Below are positions 48,249 through 59,675 of a DNA stretch of 64,000 nucleotides, piece by piece. Every line of letters starts with the position of its first letter. Position 1 is the first letter of the stretch. This DNA comes from SAR86 cluster bacterium AG-447-A08. Its GTDB lineage: Bacteria; Pseudomonadota; Gammaproteobacteria; Magnimaribacterales; Magnimaribacteraceae. Below the pieces are notes generated by a model. It did no database searches. It had not been told where the DNA came from and worked only from the letters and a program-made list of their open reading frames with translations. The stretch lies in NCBI GenBank assembly GCA_003212335.1, contig QCQA01000001.1, forward strand, positions 1-64,000, read 5' to 3'. The translations under genes were made by a program, and so were the position numbers.

Positions 48249-48296
48249 TGGTAGACACGAGTGGACTCGAACCACCGACCCCCACCATGTCAAGGT
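48249..48296 (-). pseudogene. tRNA-Val 3' fragment, left attachment repeat (attL-like)
   Basis: These 48 bases repeat positions 59598-59645 with one mismatch (C/T in the T-loop). They hold the anticodon arm from ACCTTGACATGGTGG through the T arm, the 3' acceptor strand and the encoded CCA. The 5' half (acceptor strand and D arm) is absent; beyond position 48296 the sequence diverges. This is the 3' piece displaced when an element inserted into tRNA-Val. Confidence 0.92.
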
Positions 48297-48421: not shown

Positions 48422-49033
48422 TTAGCGATATTTAGAACTTTTCTTACACTCCTCTATAAGATGAACCATTAGTGTTCTAAAGCCCAACATTCTGTATTGT
48501 CTTTCAGGAAAAGCAAAATATTTGATAGTAGGATCATCTTCTTGAATTTTTATGGTTAATACTTTCCAACCTAATGGATTCCCATAAGATTTTTCAATAG
48601 CCAAGAAGGATTTATAGACTCTCCCTAAGTTAAGATGAATAGCATGGTTTCCATCATCAAACTCTAGAGCATTAATTATCTTGGCATGATTATTTTCAAT
48701 ATATTTGCCATCAAAATTTAGGACTAAATCAACGTTTTTATCTTCTAAAGAAGTGAAATCAAAATCTTGGAACTTAGTTTTTACTTTATTGGTTGAAAGT
48801 TGGACAAAGATTGAAGGTTCGCCAAGACAGTTCTCTTCATCAACCATCACATACATTCTGTCCTTCCAAACTAAGTTACTTCTTACACTGCCTGTTTGAA
48901 CCCCTTTGAGCGTGAATTCGCTGTTAGGAAACCAATATGTTTCGTCATGCAGGGAGTTATATTCAACTTCGCCAAAAATGATATCTGAAAATAAAAAGAT
49001 AAATAATATATGTATTGATCTATTAATTTTCAT
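48422..49033 (-). CDS. Island: exported protein, unknown (cassette gene 5)
   Basis: A 203-residue protein with a signal peptide (SIHILFIFLFSDIIFGEV). The body is beta-rich with a Cys in DEENCLGEPSIFVQL and another near the C-terminal helix (LIEECKKS). The sequence CxxEPSxFV and the terminal Cys helix resemble the protein encoded at 49549, so the two are likely divergent paralogs. The start overlaps the 49023 gene by 11 bp. It is the last gene of the five-gene run; the island's left end follows. I recognise no family. Confidence 0.7.
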   Translation of the reverse strand: MKINRSIHILFIFLFSDIIFGEVEYNSLHDETYWFPNSEFTLKGVQTGSVRSNLVWKDRMYVMVDEENCLGEPSIFVQLSTNKVKTKFQDFDFTSLEDKNVDLVLNFDGKYIENNHAKIINALEFDDGNHAIHLNLGRVYKSFLAIEKSYGNPLGWKVLTIKIQEDDPTIKYFAFPERQYRMLGFRTLMVHLIEECKKSSKYR

Positions 49034-49301
49034 CAGTTTCCAGATAATTTAATGCCTCTTTTTTGCAAGTTGGACATACATTAACAATCTGCCCTTTTGT
49101 TTGATCTGATGGAGCTGCCAAGCAACCTAAATCAACAAATAAACCGTGAAAAGGATATTGCTTTTGTAACTCAGAGTCATATCCTGATGGAATTCCATAG
49201 CTTGGCTCTGCGATACCTTTTAAAAGATCATCTCCATGCAACCAACATATATTTTGTCGTAGAGCATTGATCTCTCTTTTAAGCTGTTCTTTAGTTTTCA
49301 T
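49023..49301 (-). CDS. Island: small cytoplasmic protein with CXXC, unknown (cassette gene 4)
   Basis: A 92-residue protein without signal peptide. It begins with a helix (TKEQLKREINALRQNICWLHG) and ends with VNVCPTCKKEALNYLE, a CXXC that may bind zinc together with the upstream Cys/His residues (NICWLH, DLGCLAA). I chose ATG 49301; a TTG at 49331 overlapping the upstream stop would add ten residues. The tight overlap with both neighbours argues for one operon. The function is unknown. Confidence 0.6.
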   Translation of the reverse strand: MKTKEQLKREINALRQNICWLHGDDLLKGIAEPSYGIPSGYDSELQKQYPFHGLFVDLGCLAAPSDQTKGQIVNVCPTCKKEALNYLETDEN

Positions 49302-49327
49302 ATGTTGATAAAAAAATTTTATTAAAC

Positions 49328-49549
49328 TCAATAAAGGGAAAATTTACCTATGACATCTAAATCTTCATCCGAATCCTCTTGGCAGTACTTAGCTTTACTC
49401 ACACTCAAGATATAAGCTCCTAAGGTCAAGGATGAAGTGGAAAATAAAAATATAAATAGAAGCTGCAAAGAATAGTCTCTATATGCAAAAGCCAAAAGAA
49501 GAGAAGAAAACAAACCGAGTATATAGACAATAAATCCTATTAATCTCAT
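49328..49549 (-). CDS. Island: small membrane protein, unknown (cassette gene 3)
   Basis: A 73-residue protein with two hydrophobic helices (LIGFIVYILGLFSSLLLAFAY and LQLLFIFLFSTSSLTLGAYIL) and a short polar C-terminus (CQEDSDEDLDVIGK). Its ATG overlaps the stop of the upstream exported-protein gene by one base (TAATG). It may anchor or assist the two exported proteins of the cassette; this is inference from position. Confidence 0.65.
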   Translation of the reverse strand: MRLIGFIVYILGLFSSLLLAFAYRDYSLQLLFIFLFSTSSLTLGAYILSVSKAKYCQEDSDEDLDVIGKFSLY

Positions 49550-50076
49550 TAGACTTTGGTCTCCTTTACAGCCTCTTCTTCCTTCTCATAAGGAGCAAAA
49601 GATTCACAAATTTTTGTAGCTTCCTCAATAGCCTTATCTAAATGATCGAGTACCCACTTATCTTTCCCATAAATAGAATCTAATTCCATTACTCTTACAC
49701 CTCTTAAGCTAGGAAAATTTCCTTCAAGTTCAAGCACTGATCTTTCCTCTAAAGCTAGATAAACTTTAAGATCAATCTCTTTTTTCTTTTTAAGATTAAC
49801 TCTTATACTCGCCTTTAATACCGAGTCCTCTTCTGGCTCATCAAAATCTGCTGAATCAGGAGAATACATAACAAAACTAGGTTGATCTGCAAAACAATGA
49901 GGTCTTTTGACATGAAAGATAAAGCCGTTATCAGACCGGGGATTCTCTGAATACTTCTTTACTAAAAGCATATGCGGTCCAGCATTTACAATCCTGAATG
50001 AGTCAATTGTTGTTATATCAATTTCAGAGAAGACACTAAGGGGAATTAAGGAAAAGATCGAAAGAAAAAATTTCAT
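49549..50076 (-). CDS. Island: exported protein, unknown (cassette gene 2)
   Basis: A 175-residue protein with a signal peptide (FFLSIFSLIPLSVFSEI). The body has a Cys in KRPHCFADQPSFVMYS and a second in a C-terminal helix (KAIEEATKICESF), a layout shared with the 203-residue exported protein of the same cassette. The C-terminus is Glu/Lys-rich (EKEEEAVKETK). No known domain is recognised. It lies 4 bp downstream of cassette gene 1. Confidence 0.7.
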   Translation of the reverse strand: MKFFLSIFSLIPLSVFSEIDITTIDSFRIVNAGPHMLLVKKYSENPRSDNGFIFHVKRPHCFADQPSFVMYSPDSADFDEPEEDSVLKASIRVNLKKKKEIDLKVYLALEERSVLELEGNFPSLRGVRVMELDSIYGKDKWVLDHLDKAIEEATKICESFAPYEKEEEAVKETKV

Positions 50077-50080
50077 AGGA

Positions 50081-50440
50081 TTATTGAACGGTTGGTTTAT
50101 TTGATGGATCTAAAAAAACTGAAAAGAAATCTGCCTGATGAATATCCGATGAATCATCAAGTTTTTTCTTTTCTTCTAAGGAACGCTCTAGACCTATTTC
50201 CAAAAATGCATTTACTCTTTGCCTGGCGAATTCTAAGTCCTTTGATTCCATACAAAACCTTGAAACACAAAAAAACGCCATAGCATCAGATATTTCTTCT
50301 GGATCAAGTCCTAGATCTAGAAAGTATTCCTTTAGACAGTCTAGTCCTAAGAATATCCGATGAGTGTCATCTTCAATTTCTTCTTCATCAGGAAAAGAAA
50401 TTTTAATGATTGTTTCTTGGTTTAAGTCTTTTATTTCCAT
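50081..50440 (-). CDS. Island: acidic cytoplasmic protein, unknown (cassette gene 1)
   Basis: A 119-residue, strongly acidic and helical protein (ISFPDEEEIEDDTHRIFLGLDCLKEY) without a signal. It opens the five-gene cassette. The only untranslated stretch before it is 39 bp, which contains the perfect palindrome at 50462-50478 and a TACTAT ending 6 bases before the ATG, so it probably has its own regulated promoter inside the longer WYL-helicase transcription unit. The function is unknown. Confidence 0.65.
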   Translation of the reverse strand: MEIKDLNQETIIKISFPDEEEIEDDTHRIFLGLDCLKEYFLDLGLDPEEISDAMAFFCVSRFCMESKDLEFARQRVNAFLEIGLERSLEEKKKLDDSSDIHQADFFSVFLDPSNKPTVQ

Positions 50441-50461: not shown

Positions 50462-50478
50462 ACGTCATATCATGACGT
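50462..50478. promoter_or_regulatory. Palindrome ACGTCAT-ATC-ATGACGT, candidate operator of the five-gene cassette
   Basis: A perfect 7-bp inverted repeat with a 3-bp centre, located just after the helicase stop and about where the -35 element of the cassette promoter would be. The same CGTC-N7-GACG frame occurs over the -10 of the WYL gene (54821-54835). Confidence 0.55.
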
Positions 50479-50479
50479 A

Positions 50480-53400
50480 CTAATGTATAGCGTAATCTAC
50501 CAAGTCCATATAGAAATTTACCAAGGACATTTCTTTTGAAGAATTTGCTATTGGTTGATTGAGGTTTGGAGATGCTACAAGAATAGCTAAAGTTTGAGCT
50601 CGTGAAAGAGCTACGTTGAGACGGTTTCTCTCTAATAGAAAATCTGCACCTCTTGGGGCACTCTCTAAATCACTTGCAGCCATAGAGATAAGAACAATAG
50701 GTGCTTCTCTACCTTGAAACTTATCAACTGTTCCAACTTCAAATGATGACCCCATAGCCTCTTGGAGTAATCTTATTTGATGATTGTATGGAGAGACTAT
50801 TAAAATATCTTTTGGAGTTATAGACGACTCATTGCCCTCTTCATCTGTTTTTTTACCTTTTAGAAGATTAACAACTAATTTTTCTATAGCCTCAACTTCT
50901 TCTGTACTAGATTGCTCATTGCCTTCGTGCTGCACGGGCAAGTAACAGATACCTGACTCCTTTTCTAAATTTGCTTTACTTATTTGTATCTTTCTAGAGT
51001 TTGCTACGCTTACAGACTGTAATCTTCCGTCATACACCCTAGATGATATGAAATTACATATATCTGAATTAAGTCTATAGGTATTAGGTAAAAGTAAGCC
51101 TTTATCTGCTGGAACAGTAGAAAATTCTCCTAGCAAGTAATCTAGACAAGACACTCCAGAGTCCTCTGGATGGACTCCTTGAGTCGGTTGAGATAACTGC
51201 ATTTGATCGCCCATAAGAATAATATTTTTACAGCATTTACTCATTCCTACCATGTTTGCCAAAGATACTTGTCCAGCCTCGTCTATAAGCAGATAATCCA
51301 GTTCACTCTCCATTTTGTCATTTGCAAATGTCCAAGCTACGCCAGCAACTATCCTAATTTCATCTGATAATTCAGCTTGACCAACATTTTTAAAAAGTTG
51401 AATCCTAGAGTTATCGTAAAGCTCATCCTGCCCACTATGTATTCTAGCTATATCACCTGAGATGCCATCCTCATCCATAACATTAATTACTTTTTCAAGA
51501 ATATTATTTATCGCTTTATGGCTATTTGAGGCAATCCCAACCTTATATCCTTGATTGATCAAGGAAGATATAACTCTTGAGCCAACATAAGTTTTTCCTG
51601 TACCTGGTGGACCTTGCATACATAGATACCCTCCATCCAAAGAGGAGGAGATCTCAATTGCTGCTTCCAAAGTATTACTGCCCCATTTTGATAAATTAAT
51701 ATCCCCATCCTTTTTTAGGTTAGGTCGATCTTTGGACAAAAAATTATTTAAGCATTTATTTAACTTACCAGTCTTTAGGTAGTTTTCTGCTATTTCTTGA
51801 ATGCTTGTATCAATAGGTCTTGCTAGAACAACATTAAGTGGAATTAGGCTTAAGTGGCTGGGTAGCTCCTTGGTTGATTTAAGTTTTATAGTGCCATCAC
51901 TAGAATTCATTTCATGCACTGTAACGTTAATGTTTGTATCTTGCTTTACACGTACTGAATCTCCTCGCTTGATCTTCGTTTCTTGATTTGGATCAAATGA
52001 AAATGTATACGCGGAAGACTGGGTAGTGAGTTCTTCAATTTCTCCTGTTGCGACTAGATCTCCTAGGCAATCTAAATCAACAACAAGCTCTTCGTCTGTT
52101 GACTCCAGTCGATCAAAAAGTCTCCAGTAGGCGGGTTTACTTTCTCTTTTATGGTAAAGACATAAATTTGCCAAGATACGAGCATGAGGTTTGTCATCTG
52201 TATTTGATAAGCCAGTGACTAATTCATCTAAAAGATTTGATGCATCAATCCTCTCAACCTCTCTTTCTTTGCTTGCTCTAAAAAAATAAGAAATACCTTC
52301 TTTTTTTTGAATGACTCTCAACCAATCGGATAAAGAAATTAATGAAACACAATCGTCTTTATTGTAATCCCAAATCTCTTTCAAATATTCACTATCAGTA
52401 TGATCTTTTGTATCTCCCCTTTCTGAAGACCAGACTTCATAAACCACTGTTGAATCTTGACCACTACTAACTTCATTATCTCTTTCCTCTCTAAATAAAG
52501 GCTCTATAGCTTTTAATCCATAGCCTTCCGCTCCTATACATAAAGACTGTTTTACTACTCTATATAAATCCACGAACACTTCATTTCTCAAAAGACTATC
52601 TACCTTTCTTTCGCGAGTCCCGAAATGACCCATGAGCTCCCTTATGGCTGTTATCTCAAATTGACCGTAGTGATATACATGCATGGCGTTATCTTGTTGC
52701 CATCTTGCATAAGTCCAATCAATAAAGTCTTCAAAAGCGGTTTTCATTTCTTCTTCAGAATGAGCCCACCAACAATCAAAGCCTTCGGGATTATCTTCGT
52801 GCGCTGCACCCCATAAATAATGAAGAGGAATCTTAGTAAGCAACGGATTACTTTCAATATCGAAATAAATATCTAATTCAGATTTGGGAGGCAGTGAAGA
52901 TAATCCAAGCCCTATTTCTACATTTGGAAGTAAAGAATAAGGTATCCCTCCGCTTTCTTTAGCTTGATTTTGCATAACTGCCTGTAACCTTAATCTGTCT
53001 AAAACTCTCTTATCTAAATTGTGAACTTTGACATCGCTAGTAGCTAATTCTTTTAAAGTATTAATACCCGCTTCATTTAATTTAATAATTTGAGAATGTT
53101 TGATATTGGCTACTTGAAACAAATGATCTCTTTCTTCAAGAGTTTTTTTCGCATGTTCACTAAAACGACCCCAATTTCTGTAAATATCAGGATCAGGAAG
53201 TTCACTGTTCATTTTGGCGTTTTGGAAGACTAAGAACTGTTTCCTTATTTCTTTGTAAAAAACAAAATAATCTTTCACTTGAAAGCGTTCCTTTTCTTTA
53301 TTTCCGTATATAAGAACACAAGTGTCTGTCAAAGTGCCCTGGAGCTCCGATAACATCTCTGAATAGCAACACAATTGAATCAAAAATTTTGGTCTGGATT

Positions 53401-53806
53401 TATTAGCTAGTTTTGCATCCCAAATCTCATAAGCATAATCACCAAAATCTGATTTACCTTCAATTTTATGAAGGAAGTCTGCTCTTCCAAAAAAATGTTT
53501 ATCTCCTAAAGCTGCTTGATAAATAAGTTCAACACCCTCTTTCATAGCTGCTTTTGTAGCGTCAATCATATCTTCTTGATCGCCATCTAGAATGATTCGT
53601 GAGGACATTTCAGAGGAAAGATCATGAAATAAATCCATTTCATGCTGATCACCTTTTTTCGAAGCAACTTGCATAAAAGGATCTTCTTGATCTTCCTTCA
53701 CAGCGTCTTTATCAACCTCTCTTAGATACTTATAAATAAGTGACTCAAAGGGTGATTCGAAGAATCTCATTAGACTGGATGGTGAATGTCTCCTGATATC
53801 GCTCAT
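50480..53806 (-). CDS. Island: RecB-like nuclease + DEDD exonuclease + SF1 helicase (TM0106-like)
   Basis: A 1108-residue DNA-processing protein. N-terminal RecB/Cas4-type nuclease: FFGRADF (Asp110), YEIWDAKLA (Asp130, Lys132) and the QLCCYSEML motif (Gln144, Tyr148). Middle RNase H/DEDD-like exonuclease: YFDIESNPL (Asp316, Glu318), YHYGQFEITAI, and IWDYNKDDC near 478-486. C-terminal superfamily 1 helicase: Walker A QGPPGTGKTYVG (~732-739), LLIDEAGQVS (~842), GDQMQLSQPTQG, GTVDKFQGREAP and RLNVALSRA. Its start overlaps the WYL gene by 4 bp. The layout resembles TM0106-type proteins, whose role is unknown; a defence function is inferred from the island context. Confidence 0.85.
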   Translation of the reverse strand: MSDIRRHSPSSLMRFFESPFESLIYKYLREVDKDAVKEDQEDPFMQVASKKGDQHEMDLFHDLSSEMSSRIILDGDQEDMIDATKAAMKEGVELIYQAALGDKHFFGRADFLHKIEGKSDFGDYAYEIWDAKLANKSRPKFLIQLCCYSEMLSELQGTLTDTCVLIYGNKEKERFQVKDYFVFYKEIRKQFLVFQNAKMNSELPDPDIYRNWGRFSEHAKKTLEERDHLFQVANIKHSQIIKLNEAGINTLKELATSDVKVHNLDKRVLDRLRLQAVMQNQAKESGGIPYSLLPNVEIGLGLSSLPPKSELDIYFDIESNPLLTKIPLHYLWGAAHEDNPEGFDCWWAHSEEEMKTAFEDFIDWTYARWQQDNAMHVYHYGQFEITAIRELMGHFGTRERKVDSLLRNEVFVDLYRVVKQSLCIGAEGYGLKAIEPLFREERDNEVSSGQDSTVVYEVWSSERGDTKDHTDSEYLKEIWDYNKDDCVSLISLSDWLRVIQKKEGISYFFRASKEREVERIDASNLLDELVTGLSNTDDKPHARILANLCLYHKRESKPAYWRLFDRLESTDEELVVDLDCLGDLVATGEIEELTTQSSAYTFSFDPNQETKIKRGDSVRVKQDTNINVTVHEMNSSDGTIKLKSTKELPSHLSLIPLNVVLARPIDTSIQEIAENYLKTGKLNKCLNNFLSKDRPNLKKDGDINLSKWGSNTLEAAIEISSSLDGGYLCMQGPPGTGKTYVGSRVISSLINQGYKVGIASNSHKAINNILEKVINVMDEDGISGDIARIHSGQDELYDNSRIQLFKNVGQAELSDEIRIVAGVAWTFANDKMESELDYLLIDEAGQVSLANMVGMSKCCKNIILMGDQMQLSQPTQGVHPEDSGVSCLDYLLGEFSTVPADKGLLLPNTYRLNSDICNFISSRVYDGRLQSVSVANSRKIQISKANLEKESGICYLPVQHEGNEQSSTEEVEAIEKLVVNLLKGKKTDEEGNESSITPKDILIVSPYNHQIRLLQEAMGSSFEVGTVDKFQGREAPIVLISMAASDLESAPRGADFLLERNRLNVALSRAQTLAILVASPNLNQPIANSSKEMSLVNFYMDLVDYAIH

Positions 53807-54798
53807 TTATATCTCTTATTCATAGATTTAATATTTTGAACCATTTCCTCTCTTAAAAAGTTAGGCTTTATGACTTCAACTTGCCCTGCAAAACCCAGTA
53901 GCCACCATCTCAACTGAGCTGTATCACTTACTATGGCCTTCACAAGCAATCTACCATCATCAAGAGGTGTAATTTCTTGATCTTTGGATAAAGAGCTTTC
54001 TGTTAAATGAAAACCTGCAGATCTATCAAATTTAGCCTCTAGGTTTATGGGTTTATTGGAATAAAGGTATCCCAAATTATTATCTTTTATATATTTATCT
54101 ACAGAGAATCCTTTAGGTTCATAGGAGGTATTGCCATTCCACTCGGCTTTAGTAAATCTGTGCAAAGGTAAAAATCTCGGATTATCCTTATCCTCATCCA
54201 TAGAACAGATTAAATAATGTATTTGTCCCCTTAAAACCAAACCTAAGGGATTAATAATTCTCTGTTTAGCCCTTTTCTCTGCTCTATTCGTATAAAGCAC
54301 TGAAAGTTGTCTGCCCTTAAGAAGCGCATCGTAAATCTCACCTTCAACTTGATCATTAATCTTAGGAGCTTCTAATCTTTGCCATTGATGCTCTACCCTG
54401 ACACGCTCTCTCCAACGACTGATTTCATTCCTCTTAATTTTTTTTAAAATCGAATTAGCTCTATCGAAGAAGACTTTAATTCTCTTAAAGCTCTTGCTTG
54501 GCATCAAAGGTTCTAAATATTGCTCAGCCAAGCTAAAAGTCAGTGCTTCAATCGGGTCCATAGAAGGTTGTAAACCAAAAGCACTTTGATGCCACGACCA
54601 GCCAAAAGGTCTTTCTCTATCATCACATACAATTGGCATCACAGACTCTAACGACTCTAAATCTCTTTGTATCATCCTTAGTGAAACTGAGTATCCCAAA
54701 TCTTCTAACTGCCCTTGGATTTGTGAAGTGCTCACCTTGCTAGGGTGTCTAGGAAGTATTTGTAATATTTGTAATTGTCTAAGACTGCTTTCCGGCAT
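53803..54798 (-). CDS. Island: WYL-domain transcriptional regulator
   Basis: A 331-residue regulator. The N-terminus is a winged helix-turn-helix of the YafY/DeoR-like type (LRQLQILQILPRHPSKVSTSQIQ, LGYSVSLRMIQRDLESLE). The WYL domain spans about residues 150-240 (LSVLYTNRAEKRAKQRIINP, LVLRGQIHYLICSM, FLPLHRFTKAEW), followed by a WCX-like C-terminal part (AIVSDTAQLRWWLLGFAGQVEV). WYL proteins sense nucleotides or DNA ends and often repress phage-defence operons. Here it is cotranscribed with the nuclease-helicase, and a palindrome covers its own -10 box, consistent with autorepression. Confidence 0.9.
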   Translation of the reverse strand: MPESSLRQLQILQILPRHPSKVSTSQIQGQLEDLGYSVSLRMIQRDLESLESVMPIVCDDRERPFGWSWHQSAFGLQPSMDPIEALTFSLAEQYLEPLMPSKSFKRIKVFFDRANSILKKIKRNEISRWRERVRVEHQWQRLEAPKINDQVEGEIYDALLKGRQLSVLYTNRAEKRAKQRIINPLGLVLRGQIHYLICSMDEDKDNPRFLPLHRFTKAEWNGNTSYEPKGFSVDKYIKDNNLGYLYSNKPINLEAKFDRSAGFHLTESSLSKDQEITPLDDGRLLVKAIVSDTAQLRWWLLGFAGQVEVIKPNFLREEMVQNIKSMNKRYK

Positions 54799-54820
54799 CG
54801 ATCTATTAAATTGTTTAAAA

Positions 54821-54835
54821 CGTCATTATAAGACG
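54821..54835. promoter_or_regulatory. Palindrome CGTC-N7-GACG over the WYL promoter, candidate operator
   Basis: CGTCATTATAAGACG: 4-bp arms around a 7-bp centre that contains the minus-strand -10 box TATAAT (54831-54826). It matches the cassette palindrome at 50463-50477 in 11 of 15 positions. Confidence 0.5.
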
Positions 54836-54860
54836 CTTAATAAAATATACTTGTAAAAGC

Positions 54861-54889
54861 TTGACAAAACTGAAAAAAAAGTTTAAAAT
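54861..54889 (+). promoter_or_regulatory. Near-consensus sigma-70 promoter (TTGACA-N17-TAAAAT)
   Basis: TTGACA at 54861-54866, exactly 17 bp, then TAAAAT at 54884-54889; transcription would start near 54897, giving an A/T-rich leader of about 98 nt before the ATG at 54995. It is the closest match to the consensus I found in the window and drives away from the WYL gene. Confidence 0.65.
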
Positions 54890-54994: not shown

Positions 54995-55186
54995 ATGAAG
55001 AGCAACTATTACCAAAAAAGACCTTACGTTAAGTTTCAAAACAGCGAATTAATTGAAGAGACATTCAGTGCTCACGTGCAAGGTGACACTCTTAAACTTG
55101 AAGACATAAGACATGAATTATCATTTAGGAATAGGCAAGTTGCTCAAAGTCTCATGAAGGGCATAGACCTTCTCTCTGATTATTAA
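54995..55186 (+). CDS. Island: small protein, unknown
   Basis: A 63-residue, charged protein (KSNYYQKRPYVKFQNSEL, then LKLEDIRHELSFRNRQVAQ) without membrane segments. It lies downstream of the near-consensus promoter and upstream of the structured region. The helical C-terminal half with several Arg/His could bind nucleic acid, but no family is recognised. Because it is divergent from the WYL gene, it could belong to the same regulatory circuit. Confidence 0.5.
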   Translation: MKSNYYQKRPYVKFQNSELIEETFSAHVQGDTLKLEDIRHELSFRNRQVAQSLMKGIDLLSDY

Positions 55187-55200
55187 TAAATAAAATTACT

Positions 55201-55329
55201 CCTCGTACATGAGGTAGTGCCAGCAGACGGTGCACTACATAGAAAAACATCTGCAGTGTGAGCTTTTCCTCCTTGAAGTGATCGCATTGACAGCCTGGAA
55301 AGACAGGCAATTTTATAAGTCACCTCATG
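55201..55329. ncRNA. Putative structured RNA or DNA hairpin element
   Basis: This gene-free stretch contains nested inverted repeats: CATGAGGT (55208-55215) against ACCTCATG (55322-55329) as an outer closing stem; GTAGTGC (55214-55220) against GCACTAC (55232-55238) with an 11-nt loop; and GCCTG (55293-55297) against CAGGC (55304-55308) with loop GAAAGA, followed by AATTTTAT like a weak terminator on the + strand. A CCTC/GAGG hairpin (55201-55214) competes with the outer stem. I match it to no known RNA family. The strand is uncertain; + is favoured by the upstream promoter. Confidence 0.4.
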
Positions 55330-55354
55330 ACGCCTTATAATTTACAGTAAACTA

Positions 55355-55690
55355 ATGAATCAATTATCAAAAATAGAACCTAGGCAAAGTAAACTTAAAA
55401 CTTTGCTGTTCCATTTACTAGATTTTATTTTCTCTTTTGCTATAGGAATAACAGGTCTAGTTGTATTGGTAGGATATTTATTAACCGGAATGGCTGCTTA
55501 CTTAAAAGTAGCCTCACTTCTCTCCTTACTTGTATTGTTAATTTTTTTAGGTACTGCAACATTTAGCCTATTCAGGTTTGGTCTGGAAACCTTGATCGTA
55601 GAAATGGAAGTGAAGTTTTTAGATTTGTCACTTTACTCAGCCTTTATATTTATAACTTTTCTGTTTCTTTTTTTAGAACAATATAAGTAG
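55355..55690 (+). CDS. Island: membrane protein, unknown
   Basis: A 111-residue protein with three hydrophobic segments (LDFIFSFAIGITGLVVLVGYL, YLKVASLLSLLVLLIFLGTATF, LYSAFIFITFLFLFLEQ) after a polar N-terminus. TATAAT (55336-55341) lies 13 bases before the ATG. It converges on the endonuclease gene. No family is recognised; membrane proteins of this size serve as effectors in several abortive defence systems, which is only suggestive. Confidence 0.65.
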   Translation: MNQLSKIEPRQSKLKTLLFHLLDFIFSFAIGITGLVVLVGYLLTGMAAYLKVASLLSLLVLLIFLGTATFSLFRFGLETLIVEMEVKFLDLSLYSAFIFITFLFLFLEQYK

Positions 55691-55716: not shown

Positions 55717-57141
55717 TTATGCAGCCCATGCTGCATCAGGATAGTTTGCATAAAAATTACTTGTGTATAAATCTAATAAATCTTCATCAATTGCCCAGCC
55801 CAATCCACGATGGTAATAACTTGTTGAATTTCCAGATTTGATCAATATGCCTGCTCTACCGAGTATTTGTTGTTCCGATTGAAGGAATTTCCTTGTACCG
55901 CTGCTTTTCCTTCCTGGATTAAAACCTATATTCCCATTTTCTTTAAATATTTTTTGTAACTCAATTCTATAGTTAGTTACATTTGAATGTGTGATCAGAT
56001 TTTGAGCCCTTTTAATATCTTGAATTAATTCCATCCATTTTCCTGGTACAAGGGCAAGGGTTACCATCTCATCAAAGGGATCTCCCCCTTGGTCAATCTG
56101 ATTGAGAAATTTATAACCCAAATCACTAACCTCCCATGTAACAGGATCCCACAAACCCACATGATTAAAGAAATTAGTACTATTCTTCTTGAGATCTACA
56201 TAGTTATTATCTGTAGATATATGTGCAGGTTTTTTAACCTTAATATTTTCTATTTTTTGTCCAATTCTTGTTCTAGCTTCTGGAGAGTTTGCAGCGGCCC
56301 ATCGAATTCTATTTATTGCCTCATCCTCAGTGATAGTTCCTTCATTAATTGCTTTTTTAAGAGCTTTTTTAGTTGATTCCTGCCAAATTTGTCCTTCATC
56401 ATCCCAAACTGTCAGCCTGTTGGGAATAAGGTCTACTGTTTCCATGGTGTTCTCAGGATAACAATAGTATTTAAAATAAAAGTCATCCCAAATCTTTTTA
56501 GTTGCTTCAGAGCTATACTGACCTTTATATTCGGAAGCTGTCTTCAACAGACTATAGTTGTATGAGGGGTAATTTTCTCTCCAAGAAGCCCAATATTTGA
56601 TCATATTATTTCCATAACTTTGCTTTAATTCAGAAGCAGGTCTTAAGCTAGGTCCAAAATTTGAAATAAGACTTACATTTGAGGGGTCTTCGGGAGAATA
56701 TGTAACTAATGCAATAGGATTTCTATTGAATACAGTATTTCTAAATTTATTTATATATAAAGACTCAATATCATTCCCCTGTTCATTTTTTTGTGGAATC
56801 ACCAGCAAAGAAGCTTGGTTTAAAAACTGTCCTGTATGATCTGTATCAGTAATATAATCGAAGCACTGATTAAATCCCTTTCCAATCTCATCTAAATCTG
56901 AATAAGGTGGTTTATATTCTATAGCAACATGACATTTTGTATTGCCTGAATAAAACCTTCCATCAGGAGCTGGCTTTGTTCTTTTACATAAAGCCTTTGT
57001 GATGTCACCATCAAGAAATGAACTTCTCCATTCAGAGGAGGATCTAATCTTCTGCAACATTGAATTTATTGCAATTCTTGCACCTTCATCATGGTTATAA
57101 ACTCTATAATTGGAAGGTGGTTTTAAATCAGATCGATCCAT
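55717..57141 (-). CDS. Island: probable type II restriction endonuclease (PD-(D/E)XK)
   Basis: A 474-residue protein whose ATG directly follows the methyltransferase stop (TAAATG). The N-terminal part has a PD-(D/E)XK core: Pro59-Asp60 in KPAPDGRFY, then Glu75-Tyr-Lys77 in HVAIEYKPP, with the expected 14-residue spacing. The rest has no motif I recognise; a C-terminal region (GRKSSGTRKFLQSEQQILG) could contact DNA. Position beside a cytosine methyltransferase makes it the natural restriction partner. Without homology search the assignment rests on this motif and on context. Confidence 0.65.
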   Translation of the reverse strand: MDRSDLKPPSNYRVYNHDEGARIAINSMLQKIRSSSEWRSSFLDGDITKALCKRTKPAPDGRFYSGNTKCHVAIEYKPPYSDLDEIGKGFNQCFDYITDTDHTGQFLNQASLLVIPQKNEQGNDIESLYINKFRNTVFNRNPIALVTYSPEDPSNVSLISNFGPSLRPASELKQSYGNNMIKYWASWRENYPSYNYSLLKTASEYKGQYSSEATKKIWDDFYFKYYCYPENTMETVDLIPNRLTVWDDEGQIWQESTKKALKKAINEGTITEDEAINRIRWAAANSPEARTRIGQKIENIKVKKPAHISTDNNYVDLKKNSTNFFNHVGLWDPVTWEVSDLGYKFLNQIDQGGDPFDEMVTLALVPGKWMELIQDIKRAQNLITHSNVTNYRIELQKIFKENGNIGFNPGRKSSGTRKFLQSEQQILGRAGILIKSGNSTSYYHRGLGWAIDEDLLDLYTSNFYANYPDAAWAA

Positions 57142-59376
57142 TTAATTTTTTTCTTCGTAATACCACTTATCAAGAATACTATATTTAGCTAAGTTACTCT
57201 CATTTCCTGGCTTCCAATCATTCTCTATCGCCTTGATAATCATCTCTCCAAGTTTCTGCGCCATCATAGGAGGGAAAGCGTTTCCTACTTGAATGCATTG
57301 TTCTTTTGAACTGCCCTGAAAAACAATGTCATCAGGAAATGTTTGGATTCTTGCAGCTTCTCTAGTGGTTATCAGCCTATTAAGAAAAGGATGGATAGGA
57401 AAAGCATTATGTCCTGGAACTAAGGTTATTGACGGTTCTTTTCTGCTTAGTCTTCTATAAACATGACTAAAATTCTTGATTTTCTGTCCTGTGAATTTAG
57501 CATATTTTAATTTTTCAGGAAGTTTATCAATATCCATTTTCTTGCCCTCTTCGACATAAGAATATCTTTCTTTAATCTCTTCTGAGTGGTTCATGGGTTC
57601 ATGATTAGCAACAAATTCTTTTGAATCTGGCTCACTTAAGTCTGTGATAACCTCACCAACAGTTCGCATCGGCAATTGCCAATCTTTCGGATCTTCAAAA
57701 TATTTTGGTTTTGGCCACGGAATTAAATGACCCGTTTTATTACCGATAAGCAAAAACCTTTTTCTCTTTTGAGGAATCCCATAATCAGCGGTATTAATAA
57801 CTCTGAAGTCATAATTCTTATAACCAAGTTTACGGACGTATTCTTCGAGCTTTATGACAAAATTTCCCCCATCTAAAGATTTAAATCCAGCTACATTCTC
57901 CATAATGAACCAATCTGGTTTAAGGGCTTCAACATATTCAAAGAAAGTAAAAACCAACTTATTTCGAGGATCTGTCTTTGGATCATAATTTTTTGTATTT
58001 ATAAATCTACGCTTACCGAAAATTGAGAAACCTTGACATGGCGGACCTCCAACAAGGACATTTACTTTTTTTCCTTTTAATTTTGAAAGAACTTCTTTTT
58101 TTACGTTAGTATCACTTAGATCTCCATGGACATAATCATGATTACAATAATTAAATTCATGAGTTTGTTTTACTTCTTCATTGAAATCAGCTGAAAGTAA
58201 GGACTTCATTCCAGCACTAGCTAGCCCGATTGAGAATCCACCTGCACCTGAAAAGAGGTCTATATAAGTAAGGGCATTTTTCTTGTATTTTATTTTGTCT
58301 AAAATGTCTCTAGGTTTACTTAAGTCTAATGAGCTCCTTTTCTTAACTAGAGAGCTATTGTTCGAATTATATTTTTTATTAAATAAATGTTTTTTTACCT
58401 CAACACCTAAATGTGCCGCCAGAAGAGGTGCAACAGCATTACCAACCAAGATACACTGCATTCTCCTTGTTCCTTCAAAGATATGATCATCAGGAAAGCT
58501 CTGAATTCTTGCTGCCTCTCTGGGTGTCAAACTCCTATTCAGTATCGGGTGAACTGGAAAAGCATTGTTCCCTGGGACCATAGTTATCGCAGGAGATTTA
58601 CGGTCTAAACGAACATAGGTACTACCAAAATTCTTTCTCCGAATCTCTTTAGGCAATTCTTCTGGAGGGGGCAATTTTCCACCTTCCTGAATTAGCTCGT
58701 ATCTTTTTACAACAGTATCACTATGATTTAGGGAAATATGATTTGGAAAGCTCTCATCTTTATTAACAAGATCATTAATTGCCTGTCCTACGTTCTTAAG
58801 AGGCTTTAGAGAACCAATCTTTTTGTTTATGGGTGCAGGAAAACTAAAGGGTCTTTTTGATAATGTACCTACAATGATTACTCTCTCTCTGTGCTGAGGT
58901 ACGCCATATTCAAAAGCATCCAAAACCTCACTGTATATGTCGTAACCACTTTCTGAAAATCCTTCAACTATTGTTGTGAAAGCTTGCCCTCCATACATTG
59001 TTTTTAAACCCTTAACATTTTCAAGAACAAAACATTTAGGTTTCAAAGACCTTACAAGATTAATATAGGAAGTAAAAAGATTATTTCTAGGATCACTTCC
59101 TTGCTTATCTCCCATCACAGAAAATCCCTGACAAGGAGGCCCTCCTATGACTACATCAGGCCTTCGCCCTTTTGTCAGTTTGAGGATTTCTGAAGAAGTT
59201 ATTTGTCTAATATCTTTCAGCAAAAACTCTGTCTTGCAGTTTAGATCATTAGTGCGTTTTGCTTCGGGCATGATATCTGTAGCCAATAAGCATTCGAAAC
59301 CAGCATTTTCAAATCCAATTTTAAAACCCCCTGCGCCTGAGAATAGAGAAATAAAGGTTGGTTTCTTATTCGACAT
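57142..59376 (-). CDS. Island: fused double DNA (cytosine-5) methyltransferase
   Basis: A 744-residue protein made of two complete C5-methyltransferase modules. Module 1 (~7-330): FISLFSGAGGFKIGF, GGPPCQGFSVMG (Cys82), ENV at 119-121, GVPQHRERVIIVG, VGNAVAPLLA. Module 2 (~367-735): YIDLFSGAGGFSIGL, GGPPCQGFSIFG (Cys447), ENV at 493-495, GIPQKRKRFLLIG, VGNAFPPMMA. Both keep every catalytic motif. The target-recognition regions differ but share VPG.NAFP.HP.LNR.  Two modules in one chain fit methylation of both strands of an asymmetric site. TATAAT (59414-59409) lies upstream, giving a leader of about 26 nt. Confidence 0.93.
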   Translation of the reverse strand: MSNKKPTFISLFSGAGGFKIGFENAGFECLLATDIMPEAKRTNDLNCKTEFLLKDIRQITSSEILKLTKGRRPDVVIGGPPCQGFSVMGDKQGSDPRNNLFTSYINLVRSLKPKCFVLENVKGLKTMYGGQAFTTIVEGFSESGYDIYSEVLDAFEYGVPQHRERVIIVGTLSKRPFSFPAPINKKIGSLKPLKNVGQAINDLVNKDESFPNHISLNHSDTVVKRYELIQEGGKLPPPEELPKEIRRKNFGSTYVRLDRKSPAITMVPGNNAFPVHPILNRSLTPREAARIQSFPDDHIFEGTRRMQCILVGNAVAPLLAAHLGVEVKKHLFNKKYNSNNSSLVKKRSSLDLSKPRDILDKIKYKKNALTYIDLFSGAGGFSIGLASAGMKSLLSADFNEEVKQTHEFNYCNHDYVHGDLSDTNVKKEVLSKLKGKKVNVLVGGPPCQGFSIFGKRRFINTKNYDPKTDPRNKLVFTFFEYVEALKPDWFIMENVAGFKSLDGGNFVIKLEEYVRKLGYKNYDFRVINTADYGIPQKRKRFLLIGNKTGHLIPWPKPKYFEDPKDWQLPMRTVGEVITDLSEPDSKEFVANHEPMNHSEEIKERYSYVEEGKKMDIDKLPEKLKYAKFTGQKIKNFSHVYRRLSRKEPSITLVPGHNAFPIHPFLNRLITTREAARIQTFPDDIVFQGSSKEQCIQVGNAFPPMMAQKLGEMIIKAIENDWKPGNESNLAKYSILDKWYYEEKN

Positions 59377-59597: not shown

Positions 59598-59645
59598 TGG
59601 TAGACACGAGTGGACTTGAACCACCGACCCCCACCATGTCAAGGT
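59598..59645 (-). repeat. Right attachment repeat (attR-like) within tRNA-Val
   Basis: The 3' 48 bases of the intact tRNA-Val, from the anticodon arm to the CCA end, matching 48249-48296 except for one base. Identity stops at 59645 on the 5' side, inside the anticodon stem. Confidence 0.9.
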
Positions 59646-59675
59646 GGTGCTCTAACCAGACTGAGCTACGTGTCT
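59598..59675 (-). tRNA. tRNA-Val (anticodon GAC)
   Basis: All arms fold: acceptor AGACACG/CGTGTCT, TAGCTCAG for positions 8-15, anticodon stem CCACC/GGTGG around TTGACAT (anticodon GAC), T arm GGTGG-TTCAAGTC-CACT, then discriminator A and an encoded CCA. The anticodon and T arms closely match enterobacterial tRNA-Val(GAC). A TATAAT (59693-59688) lies 12 bases upstream of the 5' end. The gene stays intact because the inserted element brought its own copy of the 3' part. Confidence 0.96.

Follow-up and report, generated by a model that had tools for sequence, protein, structure and literature searches.

Several described systems resemble parts of the locus analysed here. In Zorya, the effector module varies between types (PMC11890865). 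WYL regulators of the BrxR kind are known at defence islands, whose loci they switch, and BrxR has palindromic sites, R-BOX1 and R-BOX2, in front of its own gene and of a second group of genes (PMC9122601). DriD binds single-stranded DNA (ssDNA) and acts as an activator from sites whose distance to the promoter is fixed (PMC12340889), and published Hma is a system of three genes without the chassis described below (PMC8565338). The present locus lies within the first 64,000 nucleotides of contig QCQA01000001.1 of SAR86 cluster bacterium AG-447-A08 (GenBank assembly GCA_003212335.1), and this whole stretch is referred to as the window. The locus is laid out as a structured RNA, a WYL regulator, a DNA2-like nuclease-helicase and a cassette of five genes for an acidic cytoplasmic protein, a predicted exported protein (exp1), a two-helix membrane protein (2TM), a CXXC protein and a second predicted exported protein (exp2). 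On balance, we favour a reading in which this is a WYL-switched defence locus that combines an interchangeable DNA-targeting core with a constant envelope-linked arm, the defence role being drawn from genomic context.

By its genes alone, the locus is like Zorya in joining an inner-membrane component that has a periplasmic part to cytoplasmic DNA-targeting enzymes. It is nevertheless not a member of Zorya because ZorA and ZorB are absent. Neither these nor a MotAB-like motor gave a Pfam or PADLOC match in the locus, whose membrane protein is instead a 73-aa hairpin and which has both a WYL switch and a structured RNA. The resemblance to BrxR lies in a WYL-WCX regulator that heads a defence operon and in inverted repeats before both the regulator and a second operon. 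However, no BREX core genes (brxC, pglZ, pglX) are found among the locus proteins, the sites have 7-bp arms with a 3- or 5-bp spacer rather than the 11-bp arms and 5-bp spacer of the BrxR site, and the second target is an envelope cassette. With DriD and PafBC the locus shares WYL-WCX similarity and a fixed distance from operator to start, although the similarity amounts to only about 33 bits over residues 163-326. HmaA, HmaB and HmaC are absent from the window locus, but Hma takes the position of the enzyme in a genome of the same genus (G018). Similarly, a PDC-S37/Hhe helicase lies beside the chassis in G024 but is absent from the window. The window enzyme gene itself fits the features of both the TM0106-family nucleases and the DNA2-like helicases, with nuclease and SF1 motifs. 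A further likeness is found in SAR86, where ECF sigma/anti-sigma operons encode a domain homologous to exp1 in their third gene product. These operons differ in that their exp1 usually has an N-terminal membrane segment and that they include no acidic, WYL or helicase gene.

A preliminary description had proposed five overlapping or nearly touching minus-strand genes of no known family, and all five are open reading frames on that strand, with spacings of +4, -1, +26 and -11 bp in turn. They encode the acidic protein (50081..50440; 119 aa, net charge -16), exp1 (49549..50076; 175 aa), 2TM (49328..49549; 73 aa), the CXXC protein (49023..49301; 92 aa from ATG) and exp2 (48422..49033; 203 aa). 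The CXXC protein starts at the ATG at 49301, as in its relatives; they do not share a TTG at 49331 that would lengthen the protein. None of the five proteins has an acceptable match in Pfam, NCBIfam, PHROGs or PADLOC. Order and reading frames of all five are the same in four loci, namely the window, G005, G008 and contig DKPS01000179.1 (L044), which is the outcome that the preliminary description had sought from a gene-neighbourhood comparison. The five minus-strand genes are thus confirmed as a real conserved cassette of unmatched families. Amino-acid identity among the four loci is 92-98% for most proteins of the block, 86-93% for exp1 and 81-94% for exp2, with lower values for 2TM (74-78%) and the CXXC protein (80-92%). 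Ratios of dN/dS are 0.08-0.28 for four of the cassette genes (including exp2, at 0.09-0.17) and 0.10-0.55 for the CXXC gene, all below 1. The acidic protein is the most constant member (62-98% identity in family f1, 48% in G018) and was not found outside SAR86 within the genome sample. Its gene (50081-50440) has a dS of 0.07-0.19, compared with about 0.3-0.6 for most neighbours, which suggests extra constraint at the DNA or RNA level or recent exchange. In the viral contigs searched, neither the acidic protein nor exp2 had a relative, and the RNA motif was absent.

Hydropathy profiles, on which the export of exp1 and exp2 rests, assign one N-terminal hydrophobic segment to each of these proteins, two segments to 2TM and none to the acidic or CXXC proteins. 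Together with the neighbouring defence genes, these segments agree with the earlier proposal of exported and membrane products in a defence context, and with its suggestion that the envelope plays a part. An alignment of five 2TM sequences reveals a conserved RDxS turn and an acidic VxGxFS tail, and relatives are present in G018, G024 and G017. When the CXXC protein is aligned with G005, G008 and G033, its CWxH, GC and PTC motifs are invariant, and the protein is probably zinc-binding. A likeness of the CXXC protein to the tail of an HNH zinc site was seen by eye only and was set aside, with nothing in Pfam or the PDB to back it. PDB matches of exp1 to CpaB (E 0.47) and of the acidic protein to CapW (E 0.33) were rejected as weak. 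A toxin-antitoxin identity was also discarded, as no toxin or antitoxin family is matched.

In the preliminary description exp1 and exp2 were regarded as paralogues with a common central motif and a C-terminal cysteine. The literal motif is present in both, as C-FADQ-PS-FV in exp1 and C-LGE-PS-IFV in exp2, each with a conserved C-terminal Cys; RPxC and the C-terminal Cys are invariant in a 14-sequence alignment of exp1. Their paralogy itself is weakly supported. A profile comparison with signal peptides included gives an E value of 4.6e-4, but without them 45 C-terminal columns align with a score of 19.7 against 19.4 for the best of 300 column shuffles. Structure models built on alignments of 3-4 sequences have pLDDT values of 33 (exp1) and 42 (exp2) and are unusable for fold comparison.

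Members of the exp1 family occur in 28 of 203 SAR86 genomes; the approximately 365 other Gammaproteobacteria sampled have none. In family f2, exp1 often has an N-terminal membrane segment and usually lies 3' of an ECF sigma factor and an anti-sigma-like protein, with one or both directly upstream in 18 of the 23 genomes. This arrangement is a recurring SAR86 envelope-signalling operon. Because the f2 relatives belong to ECF operons without visible defence genes, exp1 may have a general envelope role. The rarer exp2 is found in the cassette carriers and in G044, where it stands alone, at 30% identity, in an island with tRNA-Arg and an integrase-looking gene. The preliminary description had set the idea of a cassette against homologues scattered singly. 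Both patterns occur, with exp1 alone beside ECF operons and exp2 alone in G044, and with gene order conserved elsewhere. Within the f2 operons (L019, L023, L031, L035 and similar), exp1 carries an invariant GPFSG and the anti-sigma-like protein ends in HI[FY]C[HR]C. A resemblance between the 2TM tail (VIGKFS) and the f2 tail (HYGPFSG) was dropped as evidence at a profile probability of 3%, and the match of a membrane protein near f2 exp1 (L035) to the 55355-type protein described below was not significant (E 0.44).

The cassette does not stand by itself, as had been supposed. The conserved unit reaches about 55690, beyond 48422-50440, and the WYL regulator, the DNA2-like nuclease-helicase, the structured RNA and a 3-TM-like membrane protein belong to the same conserved, probably co-regulated locus. 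The WYL/WCX regulator (53803..54798, minus strand; 331 aa) overlaps the helicase gene by 4 bp and matches PF13280 and PF25583 above cutoff. The nearest solved structures to its WYL-WCX part are 7u02, 7tzv and 8tp8, of DriD/PafBC type (E about 1e-7). A perfect 17-bp palindrome, ACGTCAT-ATC-ATGACGT (50462..50478), follows the helicase stop, 21 nt before the acidic start, and is a candidate WYL operator. A near copy and second candidate operator (54820..54836) lies 21 nt before the wyl start, and a third, weaker palindrome with 3 mismatches (55317..55333) lies 21 nt before the 3-TM gene. The pattern RCGTCNTNNNANGACGY matches exactly twice in every one of five whole genomes (1.2-1.8 Mb), in which a control pattern has 0 sites, and not at all in G018. 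Nine of these ten sites precede wyl or the acidic gene, and the tenth, in G033, lies between a 3-TM homologue and an AriA/NsnB-like ATPase. The distance from palindrome to start at wyl and the acidic gene is 21 nt everywhere but in one case (24 nt). In G018, whose WYL is 55% identical, a different palindrome is found at both places, as TGCGACA-N5-TGTCGCA before wyl and as a 2-mismatch copy before the acidic gene, again 21 nt from the start codons. Because a palindrome at fixed spacing precedes both wyl and the acidic gene, the cassette appears to have its own switch, common to wyl, and we infer that WYL is the protein that binds both palindromes. The pairing of regulator and operator is testable, given two regulator versions and two versions of the site pair with identical spacing.

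Upstream of wyl, on the plus strand, a promoter-like TTGACA-17-TAAAAT (54861..54889), kept in all four loci, faces a gene for a 63-aa protein (54995..55186) and the structured RNA (55194..55318). The 63-aa protein has no Pfam match and retains 76-81% amino-acid identity with synonymous sites saturated. The RNA interval is more conserved than its flanking genes and ends in a terminator-like hairpin (55293-55308); because it varies by one-base length changes, it is considered non-coding. Its fold has a z score of -3.27 on the plus strand compared with -1.07 on the other strand. A copy in G018 (L129:2122-2254, minus strand) is 71% identical. The consensus has 32 pairs, 9 of which show two-sided compensatory change, with 99.4% of cells paired; 0 of 500 shuffles were as good, and sliding the structure gave at most 2 two-sided pairs. 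The RNA has no match in Rfam 15. Searched with a covariance model, the five g1-type loci with the system all contain it; the remaining g1 genomes searched gave no match, and it was not found in G024 or the incomplete G033. An invariant CCUCCUU in the long stem-loop could pair with ribosome-binding sites, which is offered as a lead only. Rfam HPnc0260 matches were rejected as locus RNAs; they overlap a tRNA-Val gene and the copy of its 3' end. Beyond the RNA lies the gene for the 3-TM-like membrane protein (55355..55690, plus strand; 111 aa), homologues of which adjoin WYL or the operator in G005, G008, L044 and G033.

Between wyl and the cassette, a minus-strand gene (50480..53806; 1108 aa) encodes an enzyme that combines a TM0106-type RecB nuclease, an RNase H-like region (RNase_H_2) and a DNA2-like SF1 helicase. 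It scores 215 bits against TIGR03491 (cutoff 97), matches AAA_11 and AAA_12 above cutoff and has DNA2 as its best PDB match. PADLOC MkoA also matches the enzyme (E 2e-42), mainly over the helicase core (812-1082), with no Mokosh partner present. Homologues of the TM0106 type carried by plasmids of Vibrio, Legionella, Piscirickettsia and a cyanobacterium have BREX, McrBC or mobile genes as neighbours. The adjacency of these helicase homologues to BREX or McrBC genes supports the defence reading, and the cassette is not present beside them. In G018, WYL heads a plus-strand run of RmuC, HmaA, HmaB and HmaC (PADLOC) and a PIF1-like helicase, which ends with the acidic and 2TM genes. As exp1 is absent from this version, the chassis does not depend on the periplasmic part. 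A DUF4011 helicase-REase of the PDC-S37/Hhe type precedes WYL-acidic-exp1-2TM in G024, and the incomplete G033 has WYL-acidic-exp1-(118 aa)-CXXC with no enzyme in between. The genes that travel together therefore vary, from acidic and 2TM (G018) to acidic, exp1 and 2TM (G024) or acidic, exp1 and CXXC (G033), among carriers several of which are incomplete genomes. What is constant is a chassis, in which the structured RNA and WYL form one end and acidic and 2TM, optionally joined by exp1, CXXC and exp2, form the other. The DNA-targeting enzyme differs between relatives. It is possible, if doubtful, that the structured RNA, WYL and the acidic/2TM adaptor, with optional periplasmic proteins, form a portable chassis of undescribed architecture that takes different DNA-targeting enzymes. 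The chassis would then act as a single envelope-linked sensing and control unit for effectors of several unrelated kinds, and the RNA would be an essential part of it.

The locus lies in an island bounded on one side by tRNA-Val (gac) (59598..59675, minus strand) and on the other by a copy of the 3' end of this tRNA (48249..48273, minus strand), which is a candidate att site of 25 bp with 1 mismatch to the tRNA (0 expected). In G005 and in G008, which is SAR86 AG-920-D21 (same contig, L043), the boundary is the same tRNA-Val, and the restriction or Fic-type genes towards the tRNA are not the same in the two genomes. The block is therefore constant, and the defence genes next to it change. The complete locus on DKPS01000179.1, a contig labelled Saprospiraceae UBA7328, has about 93% identity in several proteins. 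As its acidic protein is 93% identical and its G+C content is 34%, this contig is probably mis-binned SAR86.

In the reading favoured here, the locus is WYL-controlled and probably anti-phage, and the five genes make up its distal half, which is switched separately. WYL would hold both promoters in one state, and binding of a nucleic-acid infection signal by the WYL domain would switch both. Nucleic-acid sensing is proposed from the nearest solved relatives, which include the ssDNA-sensing activator DriD. The enzyme would then attack the invading DNA; DNA is what the known DNA2-like and Hma families act on. The acidic protein may bind the acidic cytoplasmic tail of 2TM and so sit at the inner membrane. 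Together with the exported proteins it would couple the response to the envelope, most probably as a sensor or marker of the place where the phage enters, and the RNA may serve as a local regulator or cofactor. That the exact task of the arm is envelope sensing is suggested only tentatively. If the reading is correct, one of the most abundant uncultured marine lineages carries a defence locus in which regulation and envelope contact are constant and the DNA-attacking enzyme is exchanged. A periplasmic arm, which few other defence systems have, and a new family of structured RNA would then be added to what searches can look for.

The same genes could also be viewed as a separate barrier for superinfection exclusion or the blocking of entry, merely under a common WYL regulator with neighbouring DNA-targeting systems. 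Here the exported proteins would alter the envelope directly and the enzyme would be no partner. Such independence is consistent with the cassette's own candidate operator, with the adjacency of WYL, acidic and exp1 in G033 without an enzyme between them and with helicase homologues elsewhere that lack the cassette, and the unrelated enzyme families that accompany the cassette imply that no specific contact is conserved. We consider a separate barrier unlikely, however, as the minimal constant pair of acidic and 2TM in G018 lacks an exported protein and cannot itself act outside, and as this pair stays at the tail of WYL-headed operons. A coupling of enzyme and cassette through abortive infection is less probable still. 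The enzyme would make ssDNA from phage DNA, WYL would sense it as DriD does and turn on the cassette late, and the membrane and exported proteins would damage the envelope so that the infected cell is stopped. While WYL is closest in the PDB to DriD, an ssDNA-binding activator (PMC12340889), and the fixed 21-nt spacing from operator to start fits contact with RNA polymerase, those WYL regulators of the BrxR type that are known act as repressors (PMC9122601). Moreover, 2TM and the exported proteins resemble no pore or lytic family, and no immunity protein is evident. The position of exp1 downstream of ECF sigma and/or anti-sigma genes in most f2 genomes (18/23) raises a non-defence alternative, in which a SAR86 envelope-stress module has been captured in a defence island and exp1 is a periplasmic stress sensor in an RseB-like role, with the ECF sigma/anti-sigma pair as its usual partner. 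This seems very improbable given that f1 genes always occur with WYL and/or defence enzymes, and that acidic and 2TM were not convincingly found alongside ECF operons.

A minus-strand gene at 57142-59376 of the window encodes a 744-aa protein with a C5-cytosine methylase (residues 1-340) and a second methylase-like half (361-728). Next after it on the same strand (55717-57141) is a gene for a 474-aa protein without a family match, which is perhaps the restriction partner of the methylase. In G017, the locus L123 (G017:C6:16001-33000) has the same MAPEG/MsrAB flank with other defence-like genes and a distant 2TM relative of 82 aa, and the MAPEG/MsrAB-flanked site looks like a defence hotspot.
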